The notes: a model not told the origin generated them from the letters alone. A DNA stretch of 64,000 nt from Natronococcus sp. CG52 (GCF_023913515.1 NZ_CP099391.1:2108001-2172000), one strand, 5' to 3'. Numbered from the stretch's first letter, positions 55,622 to 62,772 are shown. Numbers and translations are program-made.

Positions 55622-55746
55622 CTCGAGACGCCTCCGAACGGACCATCGGCGGCGGTGGAGAACGATCTCGGCGGGGCGTCTCGATCAGTCGTTCGGCGGG
55701 GTGAATCAGTTCGAAGATCAGTGAGGCGGTGGTGTTCGATAGAGTG

Positions 55747-55871
55747 CTATAGTACCAACTGAAACGATTTCCACACCGATCGCACTGTCCGCGGTTCGGA
55801 GCGAGCGAAGCGAGCGAGAACCGCGCACCCGTCGTGCGAGCGGGCGCGCAGTGACTTTCAGCGGCTACTAT
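55747..55871. repeat. Palindromic repeat family, copy A (125 bp)
   Basis: Begins CTATAGTACCAACTGAAACG and ends GACTTTCAGCGGCTACTATC, so the ends form imperfect terminal inverted repeats. The centre (55793-55822) is a 30-base hairpin-forming block, GGTTCGGAGCGAGCGAAGCG followed by AGCGAGAACC. The whole is related in reverse orientation to copy B at 59802. No reading frame is present. It resembles a MITE or palindromic small mobile element. Confidence 0.75.
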
Positions 55872-56138
55872 CGTTCTCGACCCGGCGAGTGGCGTCGATC
55901 ACCACCTCGAGTTCGGACATCGGTTCGGCGTTCGCTGCTAGTGGCGCTGTCCTGTGTCCGCCCGGGGAGCGGGCATCTCACCGGCTGACCTGTCGACTGT
56001 TCGCTCGCGAACAACAGTCACAACTGCTGACTACCGGATTCGAGCCGGCTCGGAGTAGCCGGATGGGTGGGCGTTACAATACTGCTCACACTGCTATCGG
56101 CGTCTGGATCGACTGCTAGCCACGCTCACAACACGATC
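55872..56138. other. Intergenic region between repeat A and the WbqC gene
   Basis: About 270 bp without a convincing gene; with repeat A and the space before it the gap is 517 bp. The short open frames are Ser/Arg rich. No clear TATA box was identified for the WbqC gene. Confidence 0.4.
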
Positions 56139-56909
56139 ATGCAACGCAATAACTCCTGCTCGCAGCCGTCTTCGAATCGGGCCAGCACCGAGTCAGCACC
56201 GCCAGCCTGTGGACGCCCGGACGACCGCACCGTCGCGATCCATCAGCCGAACTACCTGCCGTGGCTCGGCTACTTCCACAAACTGCACCGAAGTGACGTC
56301 TTCGTCGTTCTCGACGATGTCGAATACACGTCCAACTCCTGGATCAATCGCAACAAGATCAAGACGCCCGACGGGTGGACGTGGCTCACCGTCCCCGTTC
56401 GCAGTTCCGACGAGTCGATCGCAGCCGTCGAGATCGCAGACGACGAGTGGCGGGACACACATCGCAAGAGTCTCCAGCAGAACTACGGTAAGGCGGCGTA
56501 CTTCGACGAGACCATCGAGTTCTTCGAGCGGACGTACGCGCGGTCGTGGGACTCGCTGTGCGAACTGAACGTCCATCTGGTCCAGGAACTCGCCGACCGG
56601 ATCGGCCTCGAGTGTACGTTCGTTCGCGCGTCGACGCTCGACGTCGACGCCACGAACAGCGAACGCATCGTCCGACTCTGCGAGGAATCGGGTGCCGACC
56701 GATACCTTTCCGGAGACGGTGCCCGATCTTACAACGACCGTTCGAAGTTCGAGGCAGCCGACGTCAGTCTCGAATATCAGTCGTTCGACCACCCTCAATA
56801 CGAACAGCGGTTCGACGGCTTCGTTCCAAACCTCTCCATCGTCGACGCGCTGATGAACGTCGGTCCGGATGGGACGTTCGACCTGTTGCGGTCAGCACCC
56901 GACGGATAA
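56139..56909 (+). CDS. WbqC family protein
   Basis: A 256-residue protein of the WbqC-like family: VAIHQPNYLPWLGYFHKLHR is the diagnostic N-terminal block, followed by NSWINRNKIKTPDGWTWLTV, HRKSLQQNYGKAAYFDETIE and a C-terminal RYLSGDGARSYNDRSKFEAA. In bacteria WbqC genes occur in O-antigen and other polysaccharide clusters; a glycine or other amino-acid transfer to sugars has been suspected, but activity is not established. Here it is not inside a glycan cluster. The first about 35 residues are a variable Ser/Asn-rich leader, so a later start is possible. Confidence 0.82.
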   Translation: MQRNNSCSQPSSNRASTESAPPACGRPDDRTVAIHQPNYLPWLGYFHKLHRSDVFVVLDDVEYTSNSWINRNKIKTPDGWTWLTVPVRSSDESIAAVEIADDEWRDTHRKSLQQNYGKAAYFDETIEFFERTYARSWDSLCELNVHLVQELADRIGLECTFVRASTLDVDATNSERIVRLCEESGADRYLSGDGARSYNDRSKFEAADVSLEYQSFDHPQYEQRFDGFVPNLSIVDALMNVGPDGTFDLLRSAPDG

Positions 56910-57030
56910 GTCACACCGACCGAAGGGCGACGAGCGCGCGGCGTTCGTTCGCCACGACGTCTGCCCCGGTCAGCGCGACACTGATGGCACCCCTGATTGA
57001 TTGTTCCTGGTGTGGTATCCAGTACCAAGA

Positions 57031-57042
57031 AGGAGGGTGATC
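57031..57042 (+). promoter_or_regulatory. Strong Shine-Dalgarno sequence of the 34-residue gene
   Basis: AGGAGGGTGATC lies 3 nt ahead of the ATG at 57046, nearly the full complement of the archaeal 16S rRNA 3' end. It is the best ribosome-binding site in this part of the window and decides that the short frame is translated from a leadered mRNA. Confidence 0.65.
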
Positions 57043-57045
57043 AGT

Positions 57046-57150
57046 ATGACGCCGTTCGAGTACGTGCTTTTGGGTGTCGCGATCGCGATCCTCGCCGGCT
57101 ACCTGGGGGCGATCGTGGCCACCCGGCTCGAGCGACTGCGCGCGCGCTGA
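57046..57150 (+). CDS. 34-residue single-span membrane protein
   Basis: A short frame encoding MTPFEYVLLGVAIAILAGYL, then GAIVATRLERLRAR: one hydrophobic helix with a basic cytoplasmic end. A near-perfect Shine-Dalgarno sequence in front supports translation. It lies between WbqC and a convergent methyltransferase. Small single-span proteins of this size often act as subunits or regulators of larger membrane complexes; nothing here identifies a partner. Confidence 0.65.
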   Translation: MTPFEYVLLGVAIAILAGYLGAIVATRLERLRAR

Positions 57151-57248
57151 GGGCGTCCGAGCGCCGATAACAGTACCACGCCGAACAGGGACGGCGAGCA
57201 ACGAGCCTCGAGGACGTGAACCACTCCAATCGTCTTGGAACGGGGCCG

Positions 57249-57917
57249 TCACTCCGTGTCGTGGCTGGCGGGCCGCGCCTGGATCATGGTGATGATGCCG
57301 AGCAACCGGGTGGACGCACAGTGTGTCGGCAGCCCGGCGTCTGCGACGAGCGTCATCGGTTCCTGGTTCCAGCGACACCCCATCTTCTCGTAGTGGGCCT
57401 CGGCGCGCCGATCCTGAAACCGGGCGATCGACTCGACGTCGCTTCTGCCGTGTTCGAGGAGGAGGATCTGTCCGTCGGGACGACACACCCTGCTCATCTC
57501 CCGGAGCGCCGCGACGGGATCCGGAAACGTGCAGGTCGATAGCGACGAGAGCACCGTATCGAAGCTGTCGTCGGGAAACTCGAGCGCCTGGGCATCCATC
57601 TCGTACAGGGTGCCGTCCACGCCGAGTCCCTCGAGTCGCTGCCGTGCCTTCGCCAGCATCTCGGGACTGATGTCGATTCCGGTGAGATCGACCGTGTCCG
57701 GGAGATACCGAAAGTTCGGTCCCGTACCACAGGCGACGTCGAGAACGCGCCCGTTCGCCGCCGCAAACAGCTGCCGGCGATATCGGCCGGCGAGCAGGCG
57801 GTCGAATCGCTCCATCCGGTGGATCCAGTCGGCCTGCTCCGCGTACACCGATCGAATCTCGGCGATGGACATCTGGCGGTGATCAGTCGGTGCGTGAGTG
57901 GTGTCGGTCGAAGTCAT
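57249..57917 (-). CDS. Class I SAM-dependent methyltransferase
   Basis: A 222-residue methyltransferase of the UbiE/COQ5-like Methyltransf_11 type. SAM motif I is GRVLDVACGTGPNFRYLP (about 57-74), motif II LTGIDISPEMLAKARQRL, motif III EMDAQALEFPDDSFDTVLSS and the later block MSRVCRPDGQILLLEHGRSD. The end CRWNQEPMTLVADAGLP resembles lipid or quinone methyltransferases. Substrate unknown. The preceding gap contains a fragment of cysteine synthase on the other strand. Confidence 0.87.
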   Translation of the reverse strand: MTSTDTTHAPTDHRQMSIAEIRSVYAEQADWIHRMERFDRLLAGRYRRQLFAAANGRVLDVACGTGPNFRYLPDTVDLTGIDISPEMLAKARQRLEGLGVDGTLYEMDAQALEFPDDSFDTVLSSLSTCTFPDPVAALREMSRVCRPDGQILLLEHGRSDVESIARFQDRRAEAHYEKMGCRWNQEPMTLVADAGLPTHCASTRLLGIITMIQARPASHDTE

Positions 57918-58063
57918 ATGTGGATCTGGTTGTGCGGCGTTCGAGCGAGCGGAGGTCGGTCGCTGGTTGCGGTGAACGCGCTACTACGGCAGTGGGACTA
58001 CGACCCCGTGGCATAATATACCGTTCCAGAAACGCGAGACGAGAGTCGTCCCGATCACCAAGT

Positions 58064-58201
58064 CGACGCGAACTGTTGATCGGCCCGAACACCGCCGGGG
58101 CGCTCGAGGTCGCCGAGAGAGACGGCGACGAGCCGACGAATACGGTGCTGACGATCGTCTGTGATGGCGACAGCCGGTTCTTCGCGACCATCGCCGACTG
58201 A
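58064..58201 (+). pseudogene. C-terminal remnant of a cysteine synthase-like gene
   Basis: About 45 codons read ELLIGPNTAGALEVAERDGD, then EPTNTVLTIVCDGDSRFFAT and end IAD-stop. This matches the last part of PLP-dependent cysteine synthases (a ...SGAN...ALEVAER... block followed by TVVTILCD-type and RYLST-type strands). The upstream sequence in this frame is Arg/Ser-rich and unrelated, and there is no start, so only the 3' end of the gene survives. It shows that an about 1-kb gene once stood here or that the piece was transferred. Confidence 0.55.
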
Positions 58202-58361
58202 TCGGTAGTCCGGCGGAGCGGTTCTGCCGGTACGTTGCATCGATACGTCATACGGGAGTGAGTCGTCGACACCGCGTTTTTCCCGGCCGATCCGGTATCG
58301 TCGGTCCCGTACCGGAACGGGGGTCACGGCGATCGACACCGGACGCGACCCGCTGGGAAGG

Positions 58362-58565
58362 CTACTGATTTTCCCACGCACTGGGCGCAACGTCGAGCGC
58401 GTGGACGGCGGGCCGGTACAGGAAGACGACGACGAAGATGATCACGAGTTCGATCCAGAATCCCAGGTCACCGACGAGCGCCCGCACGACGGCGAGGACG
58501 AGGAATACCAGAACGAGCATCGCGGCGTAGTGCGGTGCGACCTCGAGGAGACGGTCGTTGTCCAT
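58362..58565 (-). CDS. Small two-span membrane protein, 67 residues
   Basis: A 67-residue protein with two hydrophobic helices: HYAAMLVLVFLVLAVVRALV (about residues 12-31) and FWIELVIIFVVVFLYRPAVH (about 36-55), the second ending in a basic patch. The ATG at 58563-58565 follows sequence that is no longer haloarchaeal-coding in character. Comparable tiny haloarchaeal membrane proteins are common and functionally uncharacterised. Monocistronic. Confidence 0.68.
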   Translation of the reverse strand: MDNDRLLEVAPHYAAMLVLVFLVLAVVRALVGDLGFWIELVIIFVVVFLYRPAVHALDVAPSAWENQ

Positions 58566-59215
58566 GGGCGTTCTTCGACGATGACCACTAAAAATCGTAG
58601 TGTAGAATCTCCTTCTCCGTCGCTCGCCCGGGGACGATCGCGGAGACCGGACCGACGGCGGATCGATGCCGAACGCGGCGATTGCGTGGCCGGGAACGCC
58701 CCGAAAGAACGGCAACAGGTGCGTCTCACGACCGGGTGTGAGACGAGTCGATCGCCTCGAGGGCGTGCTCATTGCCGCGGGTGATGGGTAGCAGGCGGTC
58801 ACGTCGGTCGACGGCAGTCGGAGAGACGGAGTGGCGGTGTGTGCACTCGTAAAGCCGCCGTGCGTGCGCTGGCGACGACCGTGCCGGAGATGCCAATTCC
58901 AGGGCAGACGCCGTCTCGGACTCAAACTCGCGATTTCAGTCGACCCGCACTACTACTCGATCGCCTCGGCTGTCGTTCGTGCGGTCGAGTAATCATCTGT
59001 TACCGGCTTCATCTCGAAGCAGGACGATCGCGTCTAATCTCGCTCCAGGGCTGGTGAGAAGCGAGAACCCTACTCTGTGCTCCGAGAGAGTGTATTACTT
59101 ATTTGAAGCACTTTTCGAAAATTCTCGCCGTTCGTTCACGTTCTAATGTAATTGTGCACAATATTCCTTTAACTCGACGGGAAGACTTAAGTTTCGATAG
59201 TTAGCTTTCACGGAC
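58566..59215. other. Intergenic region, 650 bp
   Basis: No supported gene on either strand. The right end is AT-rich (about 59085-59200, for example GTGTATTACTTATTTGAAGC and AAGACTTAAGTTTCG) and probably contains the promoter for the gene at 59216; the TTAAG box at 59187-59191 is about 25 nt before its ATG. Confidence 0.5.
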
Positions 59216-59530
59216 ATGGCACGCGATGCTGCGGAACTGGATGCGAACGCGACGGACAGCGGAAACGAACTCCCGAACCAGATAACGGTCGTCGGACACG
59301 GCACACCTGCGAGCTTCGAGCTCACCGTCGACGGGGTAATCGAACCCGCGGGAGCCGAACAGACGACGTTCGTTTCGAATCACGCCGTCGAAGGAGCGAT
59401 CGAAACCGGCGTCGTCCAGTTTCGTTTCTCCGGCGAGATGGCTAACGTTCACATCGTCGACGTGGACGGGTTCGGACGGGACGGCTCGCCGTCCTCGCCG
59501 ACGATCCACGTCGAATACGGGAATCAGTAG
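59216..59530 (+). CDS. Hypothetical beta-rich protein, 104 residues
   Basis: A 104-residue acidic protein: NQITVVGHGTPASFELTVDG followed by GVVQFRFSGEMANVHIVDVD, a run of beta strands without signal or membrane segment. The motif VVGHGTPASFELTVDG recurs, as far as I recall, in haloarchaeal hypothetical proteins, but I cannot name a family. Start supported by an AT-rich promoter about 25-30 nt upstream. Stands alone between two long noncoding stretches. Confidence 0.6.
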   Translation: MARDAAELDANATDSGNELPNQITVVGHGTPASFELTVDGVIEPAGAEQTTFVSNHAVEGAIETGVVQFRFSGEMANVHIVDVDGFGRDGSPSSPTIHVEYGNQ

Positions 59531-59654
59531 TTCGCGAGATAGGTGATTCAGGGTGTTCACGGGACCGTCGGACCAGCCGTCGATGAACCGATGCGAACCC
59601 AGAGTGTAGGAGGCGCCCGGCCTCTGCAGAACGCGGTGTAAAAAGTACCCGAGT

Positions 59655-59770
59655 TCACCCGACTGGTTGCGCGTAGCCCTCGACCCGTTCGTGGTACTGG
59701 CGAAGAACAGGAAGTGTACCGCAGATACTGCTCGGCTTTCGAGTAGTCACCAGATGCGAGTTACCGCCAC
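59655..59770 (-). pseudogene. Possible frameshifted 3' gene remnant
   Basis: Read leftwards, one frame gives SGDYSKAEQYLR and the next frame continues TLPVLRQYHERVEGYAQPVG to a TGA; joined, they look like the C-terminus of a haloarchaeal protein with one frameshift. Nothing upstream in either frame extends it beyond about 25 codons. The case is weak and chance cannot be excluded; noted because it lies in an otherwise gene-free zone beside a mobile-like repeat. Confidence 0.3.
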
Positions 59771-59801
59771 TCGCGAGCAGCGCCGTCCACGTCGAGCTCC
59801 T

Positions 59802-59928
59802 CTATAGTAGCCACTGAAAGTCACTGCACACCCGATCGCACGACGGGTGCGCGGGTCGGAGCGAGCGAAGCAAGCGAGAACCGCGGACAGTGCGATCGGT
59901 GTGGAAATCGTTTCAGTTGGTACTATAG
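59802..59928. repeat. Palindromic repeat family, copy B (127 bp)
   Basis: Begins CTATAGTAGCCACTGAAAGT and ends TTTCAGTTGGTACTATAG, with the terminal CTATAG present at both ends. Both outer arms match copy A (55747) in reverse orientation almost base for base. The 30-base centre (59853-59882), GGGTCGGAGCGAGCGAAGCA followed by AGCGAGAACC, however runs in the same direction in both copies and is thus inverted relative to the arms. Confidence 0.75.
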
Positions 59929-61032
59929 CCGGCGCTGTGACTTCGCCGGCAGGCGACGCCGATATCGACGGCGCGCGGACTCCACTACCGAACTTCTGTG
60001 AACGGTTCTGAAGCGCGAGTTGAGAGCGACGAGGATTCGGCAACGGCCGGTAAAGTACCACTTTCGAGTACTGTACCCATCAGTGAGTGTATGGGATAAA
60101 CGCAAGTCGACAGATGGCAGAAAGCGCCCGGTTGGATACGGTTTCGTCGCCGAAACGACGGTTCCGCGGAACGAGCGGCGTTACTGACCGTGTATCGTCC
60201 GTAAAAGGCGGTCCGAATCCGATTAGACTGTCTTCGGAACGTCGTCGACTCAGAAACCAGCAGAGCCCTCGAAACGGATTCGGTAAGATTCTTCCTGCCT
60301 CGCAGCGGATTTCGAGACAGTATACGGAAACGGAGTGAATTGTATATAGTATACTATATTAACCGGAACCTGATCGATTTATGATCTTTTAAACACGCTA
60401 CCAGTAATCGTTGGAACAGGTATCGACCGACGGGCTACTGAAATCGACCAATCTAACCGATACGTCGAGCGAGGCGAGCGATTTTCCGCTTACCGCCCGA
60501 CCGCTGGGAGGACGCCAGCTTTGGAGTGAAACTCCCTTCGAACGCGACCCGAGGGGTTCGTAAGGGACGGCCGCCGAATGCGGTTTCGTCCGCCTCTCTG
60601 TGCTCACTGCTCGACGTTCGGAGACCACGAAAGGGCCCGCACTCCCGACTGACGCGTTCCTCGTCATCCTCGTCCGAAACAGTTCGCCACTACCTGGTAG
60701 TCCTTCCCACCGTTTCACCCGCTATGAGACACCGACAGTGAGAGAACGCGTCGAAAAGACGGGGGTCGCAGCGATCTCGCCGTGACTACCGGCGGCCCCG
60801 TCGTAGCACTACGTTTCTGGAGCGATTCACCACTCTCCGTGACGACCAACGGAGCAACCAGCTCTCTATGGCCGGTTTCCGGTTGAGATCTCGAGATCGA
60901 AGTTGACCGGAACCGATCGATGCGCGGAATCTGTAATCGGTACAGAATCTTCTTTACAACCATATTATTGTAATCAACGGTCGCTCTCGAGAACGGGAAT
61001 CAGCTAGGGTGGACGGACTCGAACGAGGTGAG
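59929..61032. other. Long gene-free stretch, about 1.1 kb
   Basis: No gene could be supported on either strand; open frames here are Arg/Ser rich. Notable is a perfect 16-base palindrome ATATAGTATACTATAT at 60344-60359 followed by further AT-rich sequence to about 60395, which would fit a promoter or protein-binding site but has no gene to drive within 600 bp. Confidence 0.5.
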
Positions 61033-62689: not shown

Positions 62690-62772
62690 ATAGTAGCTAC
62701 TGAACGTCATGCACACCCGATCGCACAGCCCTCGTGCGATCGGTGTGAAAACCGGTTCAGTTGGTGTTATAA
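62690..62772. repeat. Palindromic repeat family, short copy C (83 bp)
   Basis: Starts ATAGTAGCTACTGAACGTCA and ends CGGTTCAGTTGGTGTTATAA, in the orientation of copy B. It keeps both arms (CACACCCGATCGCAC and GTGCGATCGGTGTG, which pair with each other) but has only about seven bases between them instead of the 30-base hairpin core with its flanks. It represents a core-less form of the same element, or the ancestral form. Confidence 0.65.

Follow-up and report, generated by a model that had tools for sequence, protein, structure and literature searches.

Introduction

The terminal repeats of adeno-associated virus (AAV) and other parvoviruses contain an internal palindrome that occurs in two orientations (flip and flop) relative to fixed outer arms, which comes about through hairpin copying. 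In yeast, polymerase template switching between the arms of inverted repeats inverts the spacer that lies between them and homogenises the arms; ten such inversions have been described, with arms of at least 10 bp and spacers of 2-5 nt (PMC8604942). Template-switch spacer inversion has also been inferred for hairpins of ribosomal RNA (rRNA), bacterial ones included, and for that of a microRNA (PMC8794818). Here we describe a palindromic mobile element of haloarchaea, a miniature inverted-repeat transposable element (MITE), in which internal segments are found in both orientations. The analysis started from two copies of this element, A and B, in a stretch of 64,000 nt of the genome of Natronococcus sp. 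CG52 (NZ_CP099391.1:2108001-2172000), which we call the window.

Inside its terminal repeats the element contains two nested stems, S2 and S3, and the segment between two S2 arms or two S3 arms exists in either orientation, having been turned in place after insertion. We propose, with a probability that we put at roughly two in three, that these flips arise by replication template switching between the inverted-repeat arms, in a MITE that was probably moved by a transposase of the IS630/Tc1-mariner type. That is, they are most likely the work of a known mutational process on an unusually favourable substrate, and probably neutral scars of hairpin replication rather than a regulated switch. Hairpin template switching has so far mostly been inferred from scattered hairpins, and our literature search found no report of the hairpin-driven process in archaea.

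Copies A and B: matching arms, opposite cores

A first-pass annotation of the window had described A and B as two copies in opposite orientation with matching arms, between which a central 30-bp core is inverted relative to those arms. Direct comparison bears out both statements. Over the full extents compared (A 55746-55871, B 59802-59929, mutually inverted), the left arm of A (55746-55797) pairs with 100% complementarity to the right arm of B (59878-59929; 52/52 nt), and the second arm pair is 91% identical over 54 nt. The two cores agree at 28/30 positions on the same strand; with one of them reversed, the agreement is 9/30. Aligning A to reverse-complemented B gives a score of 104.5, which rises to 117.5 once the core of A is re-inverted.

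A symmetric core altered by point mutation was considered as an explanation and rejected. The core matches its own reverse complement at 8/30 positions (in 20,000 shuffles, 6.7 on average and 14 at most), and together with the 9/30 identity of the reversed cores this means that neither symmetry nor a few point mutations can account for the pattern. Compared with the other copies of the genome, B carries the core in the majority state and A in the flipped state. When both are folded as single-stranded DNA, B alone of the two beats shuffled sequence (z-scores of -5.6 and -4.6 for B, -0.8 for A).

In a tree of the copies, the arms of A and B are each other's closest relatives (support 97/89) despite their opposite cores. 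In the related N. pandeyae, site A holds a 31-bp remnant of the element, with both ends kept and the interior gone, and site B holds no element. The simplest history would make A the older insertion and B a later local copy, or one kept similar to A by conversion, with the core of A flipped afterwards.

Palindromes are difficult to sequence, and a flipped core could in principle be a hairpin artefact of assembly or sequencing. Of all the explanations weighed here we consider this the least probable: A and B lie within unique sequence in a three-contig assembly, flips occur in the genomes of many independent projects, and one flipped block (copies L008 and L408, below) is present in two independent assemblies.

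A nested palindrome that inserts at TA

The element comes in two size classes, one of 121 bp with the core and one of 80 bp without it. Its anatomy is nested. Outermost are the terminal repeats S1, TAGTANCNNCTGAAA, at both ends, followed by an outer asymmetric stretch (left CGATTTCCA, right GTCAGTG) that sets the orientation of the arms. Stem S2, CACACC(C)GATCGCAC, comes next and encloses a middle asymmetric stretch (TGTC vs GACGGGA), which the short class replaces with the 7-nt spacer AGCCGTC. Innermost is stem S3, CGCGGTTC, with a loop of 20 nt.

A and B belong to a palindromic, non-autonomous MITE family with TA as its insertion site: terminal inverted repeats of ~15 bp, a TA duplication, the lack of any transposase or open reading frame inside and a high copy number are all found. 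The annotation had contrasted the pair with a simple MITE, a distinction that falls away because the element is a MITE and its flips follow insertion. The target duplication is established by comparing a filled with an empty site (L175 filled, L100 empty; GG-TA-element-TA-GC vs GGTAGC). N. pandeyae reads ...GAGCAGG-TA-[80 bp]-TA-GCTCAACAG... where the metagenome-assembled genome (MAG) CSSed10_265 is empty and reads ...GAGCAGG-TA-GCTGAACAG.... TA also stands at three of the four outer ends of A and B; on the outer side of the right end of A it has decayed to TC.

The ends of the element point to its mover. The termini of the IS630-family (DDE_3) transposons in these genomes are TATAGTAACCGTTAGAA and TATAGTAG(T/A).GTTAGAA; those of the MITE are TATAGTAACAACTGAAA and TATAGTAGCCACTGAAA, and the tips TATAGTAAC... 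and TATAGTAG... are common to both. The DDE_3 elements of the genus have the same outermost TATAGTA(A/G) as the MITE, without CTGAAA. Given the tips and the TA target in common, the element is probably mobilised by a transposase of the IS630/Tc1-mariner family. No autonomous IS630 element with identical ends was found among the DDE_3 loci. A candidate autonomous element at C1:873223/874651 in the genome that holds the window (hereafter the window genome) was rejected, the pair being two separate 80-bp copies.

The family numbers hundreds of copies in haloarchaea; it is present throughout Natrialbaceae and also on plasmids of Haloarcula, Halomicrobium and others; a search of a phage collection found no copies. 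Scanning the window genome (4.74 Mb in three contigs) for the terminal repeats returned 44 + 41 matches (85), against 0 + 0 for a reversed control. Scoring 40 of the 153 candidate places found with A as the query showed nearly all of them to cover the entire element. Identical elements occur near both ends of contigs C1 (e.g. 21745 and 3958038) and C2 (4892/362152, 11674/368934), with an offset that does not vary. This suggests that the contigs are circular and retain terminal overlaps of ~35.7 kb that were not trimmed, so that raw lists contain the copies in the overlaps two times. In three copies of the window genome (L130, L132 and L050), another type of core (GTGGGCGAGGTCGGTGGTGTCGACCTCGAG...) lies within S2, a hint that the interior of the element can be taken up by unrelated hairpins.

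Flips in place at shared insertions

The flips take place in position, after insertion, as is seen where related genomes share an insertion. Locus 1 is common to N. amylolyticus DSM 10524, Natronococcus sp. A-GB7 and Natronococcus sp. A-GB1, with 3-kb collinear flanks of 92.7-94.4% identity. Its spacer is GACGGCT in N. amylolyticus and A-GB7 and the exact reverse complement, AGCCGTC, in A-GB1; perfect 9-bp stems flank the spacer on both sides, and the arms are the same and unexchanged. At locus 2, again within collinear flanks, the spacer reads AGTCGTC in the window genome, GACGGCT in MAG CSSed10_265 and GACCGTC in A-GB7, where the palindrome of the arms is perfect, as arm homogenisation usually leaves it. 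An exact reverse complement between inverted arms at an orthologous locus, the signature of template-switch spacer inversion, is thus seen at locus 1; locus 2 shows it together with a third, homogenised state. At locus 3 it is the core that differs, with the majority orientation in N. pandeyae and the flipped one in the window genome.

Orientation is stable over the time scale of species, which speaks against a fast switch. This follows from two observations: 8 of the 11 shared insertions inspected retain an identical orientation, and the same flipped block is found in L008 of the window genome and L408 of N. pandeyae. For the remaining flipped copies of the window genome, a search for orthologues in N. 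pandeyae and G008 gave no intact copy other than this pair (L134 and L012 lay outside the query, L045 partly so).

Flipped segments recur across copies. In a census of long copies in the window genome (40 scored of 127-153 candidate places), the non-identical intact copies, oriented by their arms, comprise 31 in the majority state, 6 with a flipped core and 4 with a flipped block, the last meaning that the entire stretch between the S2 arms is reversed, core included. The six core-flipped copies are A, the pair at C1:596341 and 597680, and those at C3:232850, C1:1809423 and C1:2065807; inspection added L028 (block-flipped) and L012 (truncated, core-flipped). In the full set of copies retrieved, 16/140 short and 6/86 long ones have a flipped middle segment. 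Scanning ~85,000 species genomes for the spacer motif gave 119 stretches with 120 hits (103 majority, 13 flipped, 4 undecided), so that 13/116 scorable hits across Natrialbaceae are flipped, and these 13 belong to ~9 species of several genera. Both states that the annotation had noticed in a single pair are found again when other copies of the window genome are oriented by their arms. The tree requires 5 changes of core state, at least 2 of them forced by supported branches. Individual copies with homogenised arms are L020, L231 and locus 2 of G007. As a separate observation, the core-flipped copy at C1:2065807 (L005) interrupts a sequence that is intact in four regions of N. pandeyae and G008, by eye an elongation-factor-type gene.

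A segment between inverted repeats that is found in both orientations is also what a site-specific recombinase would produce by inverting the core, with phase variation as in invertons. We regard this as very improbable. A Pfam scan of the nine neighbouring open reading frames found no recombinase, the flips occur at two nested levels between different repeats, and the majority state stands at ~85-90%. Moreover, most orthologous copies are in one state, and the flipped block of L008/L408 is common to two species. The annotation had listed site-specific inversion among its possible routes, and these results leave that part without support.

Similarly, a separate core hairpin may have been inserted several times independently, in either orientation, into the 80-bp element. 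The existence of a class without the core and of other core types at the same place (L032, L038, L130, L132) speaks for such insertions, but the junctions are base-identical whichever way the core points, A is the sister copy of B, and in copies without a core the 7-nt spacer flips in place too. Locus 3, moreover, suggests one insertion with opposite core orientations. Repeated insertion is accordingly as hard to credit as the recombinase.

Probable template switching between stem arms

How could replication invert a segment so exactly? During replication or repair synthesis, the nascent strand would stall in the first stem arm, jump to the matching arm of the other strand and copy the spacer there. 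A return switch within the second arm would then leave exactly the inter-arm spacer inverted and everything outside it unchanged. Because the stems are nested, either the 20-nt loop (through S3) or the block of ~70 nt (through S2) could be flipped, and two nested levels that flip with different stems are as expected for a stem-dependent process. The inner hairpin may reduce the effective distance across the longer spacers. The same hairpin chemistry could also underlie the homogenisation of arms, the collapse of the interior and the growth of the core into tandem arrays in relatives.

Such arrays are well developed in N. pandeyae, where many cores (L101-L118) consist of nested tandem units, ~53 bp on the left and 16 bp on the right, that vary independently in number and bring the element to 180-380 bp. 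At one and the same insertion site, the element measures 121 bp in the window genome (L068/L036) and 271 bp in N. pandeyae (L113), and the 121 bp of L008 are matched by an expanded array in L408. Inversion, homogenisation, array growth and interior collapse all take place between stems, as expected if hairpin copying is their source.

The main rival is ectopic gene conversion, since it would end in the same sequence: an oppositely inserted copy would pair via the palindromic stems and replace the spacer or core in inverse. Haloarchaea are polyploid and ready to undergo gene conversion, each genome offers tens of near-identical donors in both orientations, and A and B, which are 4 kb apart, have the closest arms. 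The copies also act as recombination sites. For example, two inverted copies of the window genome (L180, C1:596341-597801), which differ at 1/121 positions, enclose a 1.3-kb stretch that is inverted relative to N. pandeyae (L179/L410), with its ends at the elements. On the other hand, conversion would need pairing over stems of 9-15 bp with non-homologous sequence on both sides. Most short copies of A-GB1 show 91-99% similarity to the query copy and not identity, and no donor-specific variant was found to accompany a flipped spacer. In addition, the flips occur at two nested levels with breakpoints within the stems. On balance, we think conversion unlikely as the source of the flips.

Intramolecular strand exchange or cruciform processing (e.g. 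by the Holliday-junction resolvase Hjc acting on an extruded cruciform, followed by rejoining) would invert the loop conservatively. Nested hairpins can be extruded from the element, the folding of B is far better than that of its shuffles, and the missing interior of the N. pandeyae remnant at site A matches the breakage of a palindrome. Yet cutting normally gives hairpin-capped ends and no inversion, and copies with the same type of S2 in both arms (L016, L020 and locus 2 of G007) are non-conservative products. We therefore judge this route improbable. Of the three routes that the annotation had offered for the switch in core orientation, replication via a folded intermediate fits best, as the switch is recurrent and occurs in place; classic cruciform resolution, though conceivable, is not needed.

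Several points weigh against template switching as the source. The polymerase step is read from its products, and recombination between arms or conversion by an opposite copy would yield an identical final sequence. The published spacers measure 2-5 nt, compared to 7, 20 and ~70 nt here. Locus 3 also underwent recombination between two inverted copies, so the change of its core could be conversion. From a statistical perspective, a tree that places all core-flipped copies in one clade is not rejected (approximately unbiased test, p = 0.12), and the association of arm homogenisation with flipping is non-significant (Fisher p = 0.11).

A bolder version of the proposal, which strikes us as possible but doubtful, is that a hairpin-specific replication intermediate (e.g. 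in transposition-coupled gap repair, in polyploid cells) causes frequent inversion, homogenisation, tandem-array expansion and collapse of the nested hairpins. The copies would then be natural recorders of template switches, including spacer inversions of ~70 nt, which simple short-range models would not lead one to expect.

Features in the window

The features of A and B are collected in Table 1 along with a third, coreless copy of the family, absent from the annotation's account of this pair. No Rfam RNA family was matched in the window. Directly to the right of A lies a WbqC-family gene (56067-56909), which is mostly missing at that site in N. pandeyae and G008, with relatives elsewhere in those genomes.

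Table 1. Positions of the MITE copies and their parts, counted from the first letter of the window
Feature	Position	Strand	Remarks
Copy A	55750..55870	+	121-bp palindromic MITE in which the outer left arm leads; core inverted with respect to arms
A, left terminal inverted repeat	55750..55764	+	TAGTACCAACTGAAA; flanking TA at 55748-55749
A, stem S2, left arm	55772..55785	+	CACACCGATCGCAC
A, 30-bp core with stem S3	55793..55822	+	GGTTC...GAACC; flipped; GGAGCGAGCG... in arm orientation
A, stem S2, right arm	55834..55847	+	GTGCGAGCGGGCGC; diverged
A, right terminal inverted repeat	55856..55870	+	TTTCAGCGGCTACTA
TA target duplication, left of B	59803..59804	.	Site empty in N. pandeyae
Copy B	59805..59925	-	MITE, 121 bp; opposite to A; majority core orientation
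B, stem S2 arm	59827..59841	-	CACACCCGATCGCAC
B, 30-bp core with stem S3	59853..59882	-	Majority orientation
B, stem S2 arm	59890..59903	-	GTGCGATCGGTGTG
TA target duplication, right of B	59926..59927	.	Site empty in N. pandeyae
Third family copy	62691..62769	-	Short 80-bp class without core; 7-nt S2 spacer flipped, GAGGGCT in arm orientation (majority AGCCGTC)

Comparison with known systems

Each copy of the element retains a record of flip events. A single repeat family supplies, within one clade, natural replicas that number well above a hundred, with an orientation marker at two nested levels and with pairs of species that share insertions. Together, these make the rates, the dependence on spacer length and the strand bias of the process measurable in archaea.

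As a mobile element, the family resembles the MITEs that depend on IS630/Tc1-mariner transposases in its terminal inverted repeats of ~15 bp, its TA duplication, the absence of an open reading frame, its high copy number and its TATAGTA(A/G) tips. It differs in the inner bases of the terminal repeats (CTGAAA here vs GTTAGAA in IS630) and in having an internal palindrome with a switching core. The MITEs, PATEs and SMRs of Haloquadratum walsbyi are likewise short non-coding mobile repeats of halophilic archaea, the MITEs using a transposase in trans, as far as the parts of PMC3119063 considered here describe them. Those same parts mention no internal switching of orientation, and they portray PATEs as having neither terminal inverted repeats nor target duplications.

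With respect to its flips, the element shares with the template-switch inversions of Saccharomyces cerevisiae genes (PMC8604942) and of rRNA and microRNA hairpins (PMC8794818) an exact inversion between arms at an orthologous locus, recurrence, fixed arms and homogenisation. Each of those cases concerns one short hairpin, whose spacer in yeast measures 2-5 nt, whereas here a dispersed archaeal mobile element carries nested stems around segments of 7, 20 and ~70 nt. The repeats of AAV and parvoviruses, finally, stand at the ends of linear viral genomes and flip routinely with a dedicated nickase, while the element described here is internal and flips rarely.

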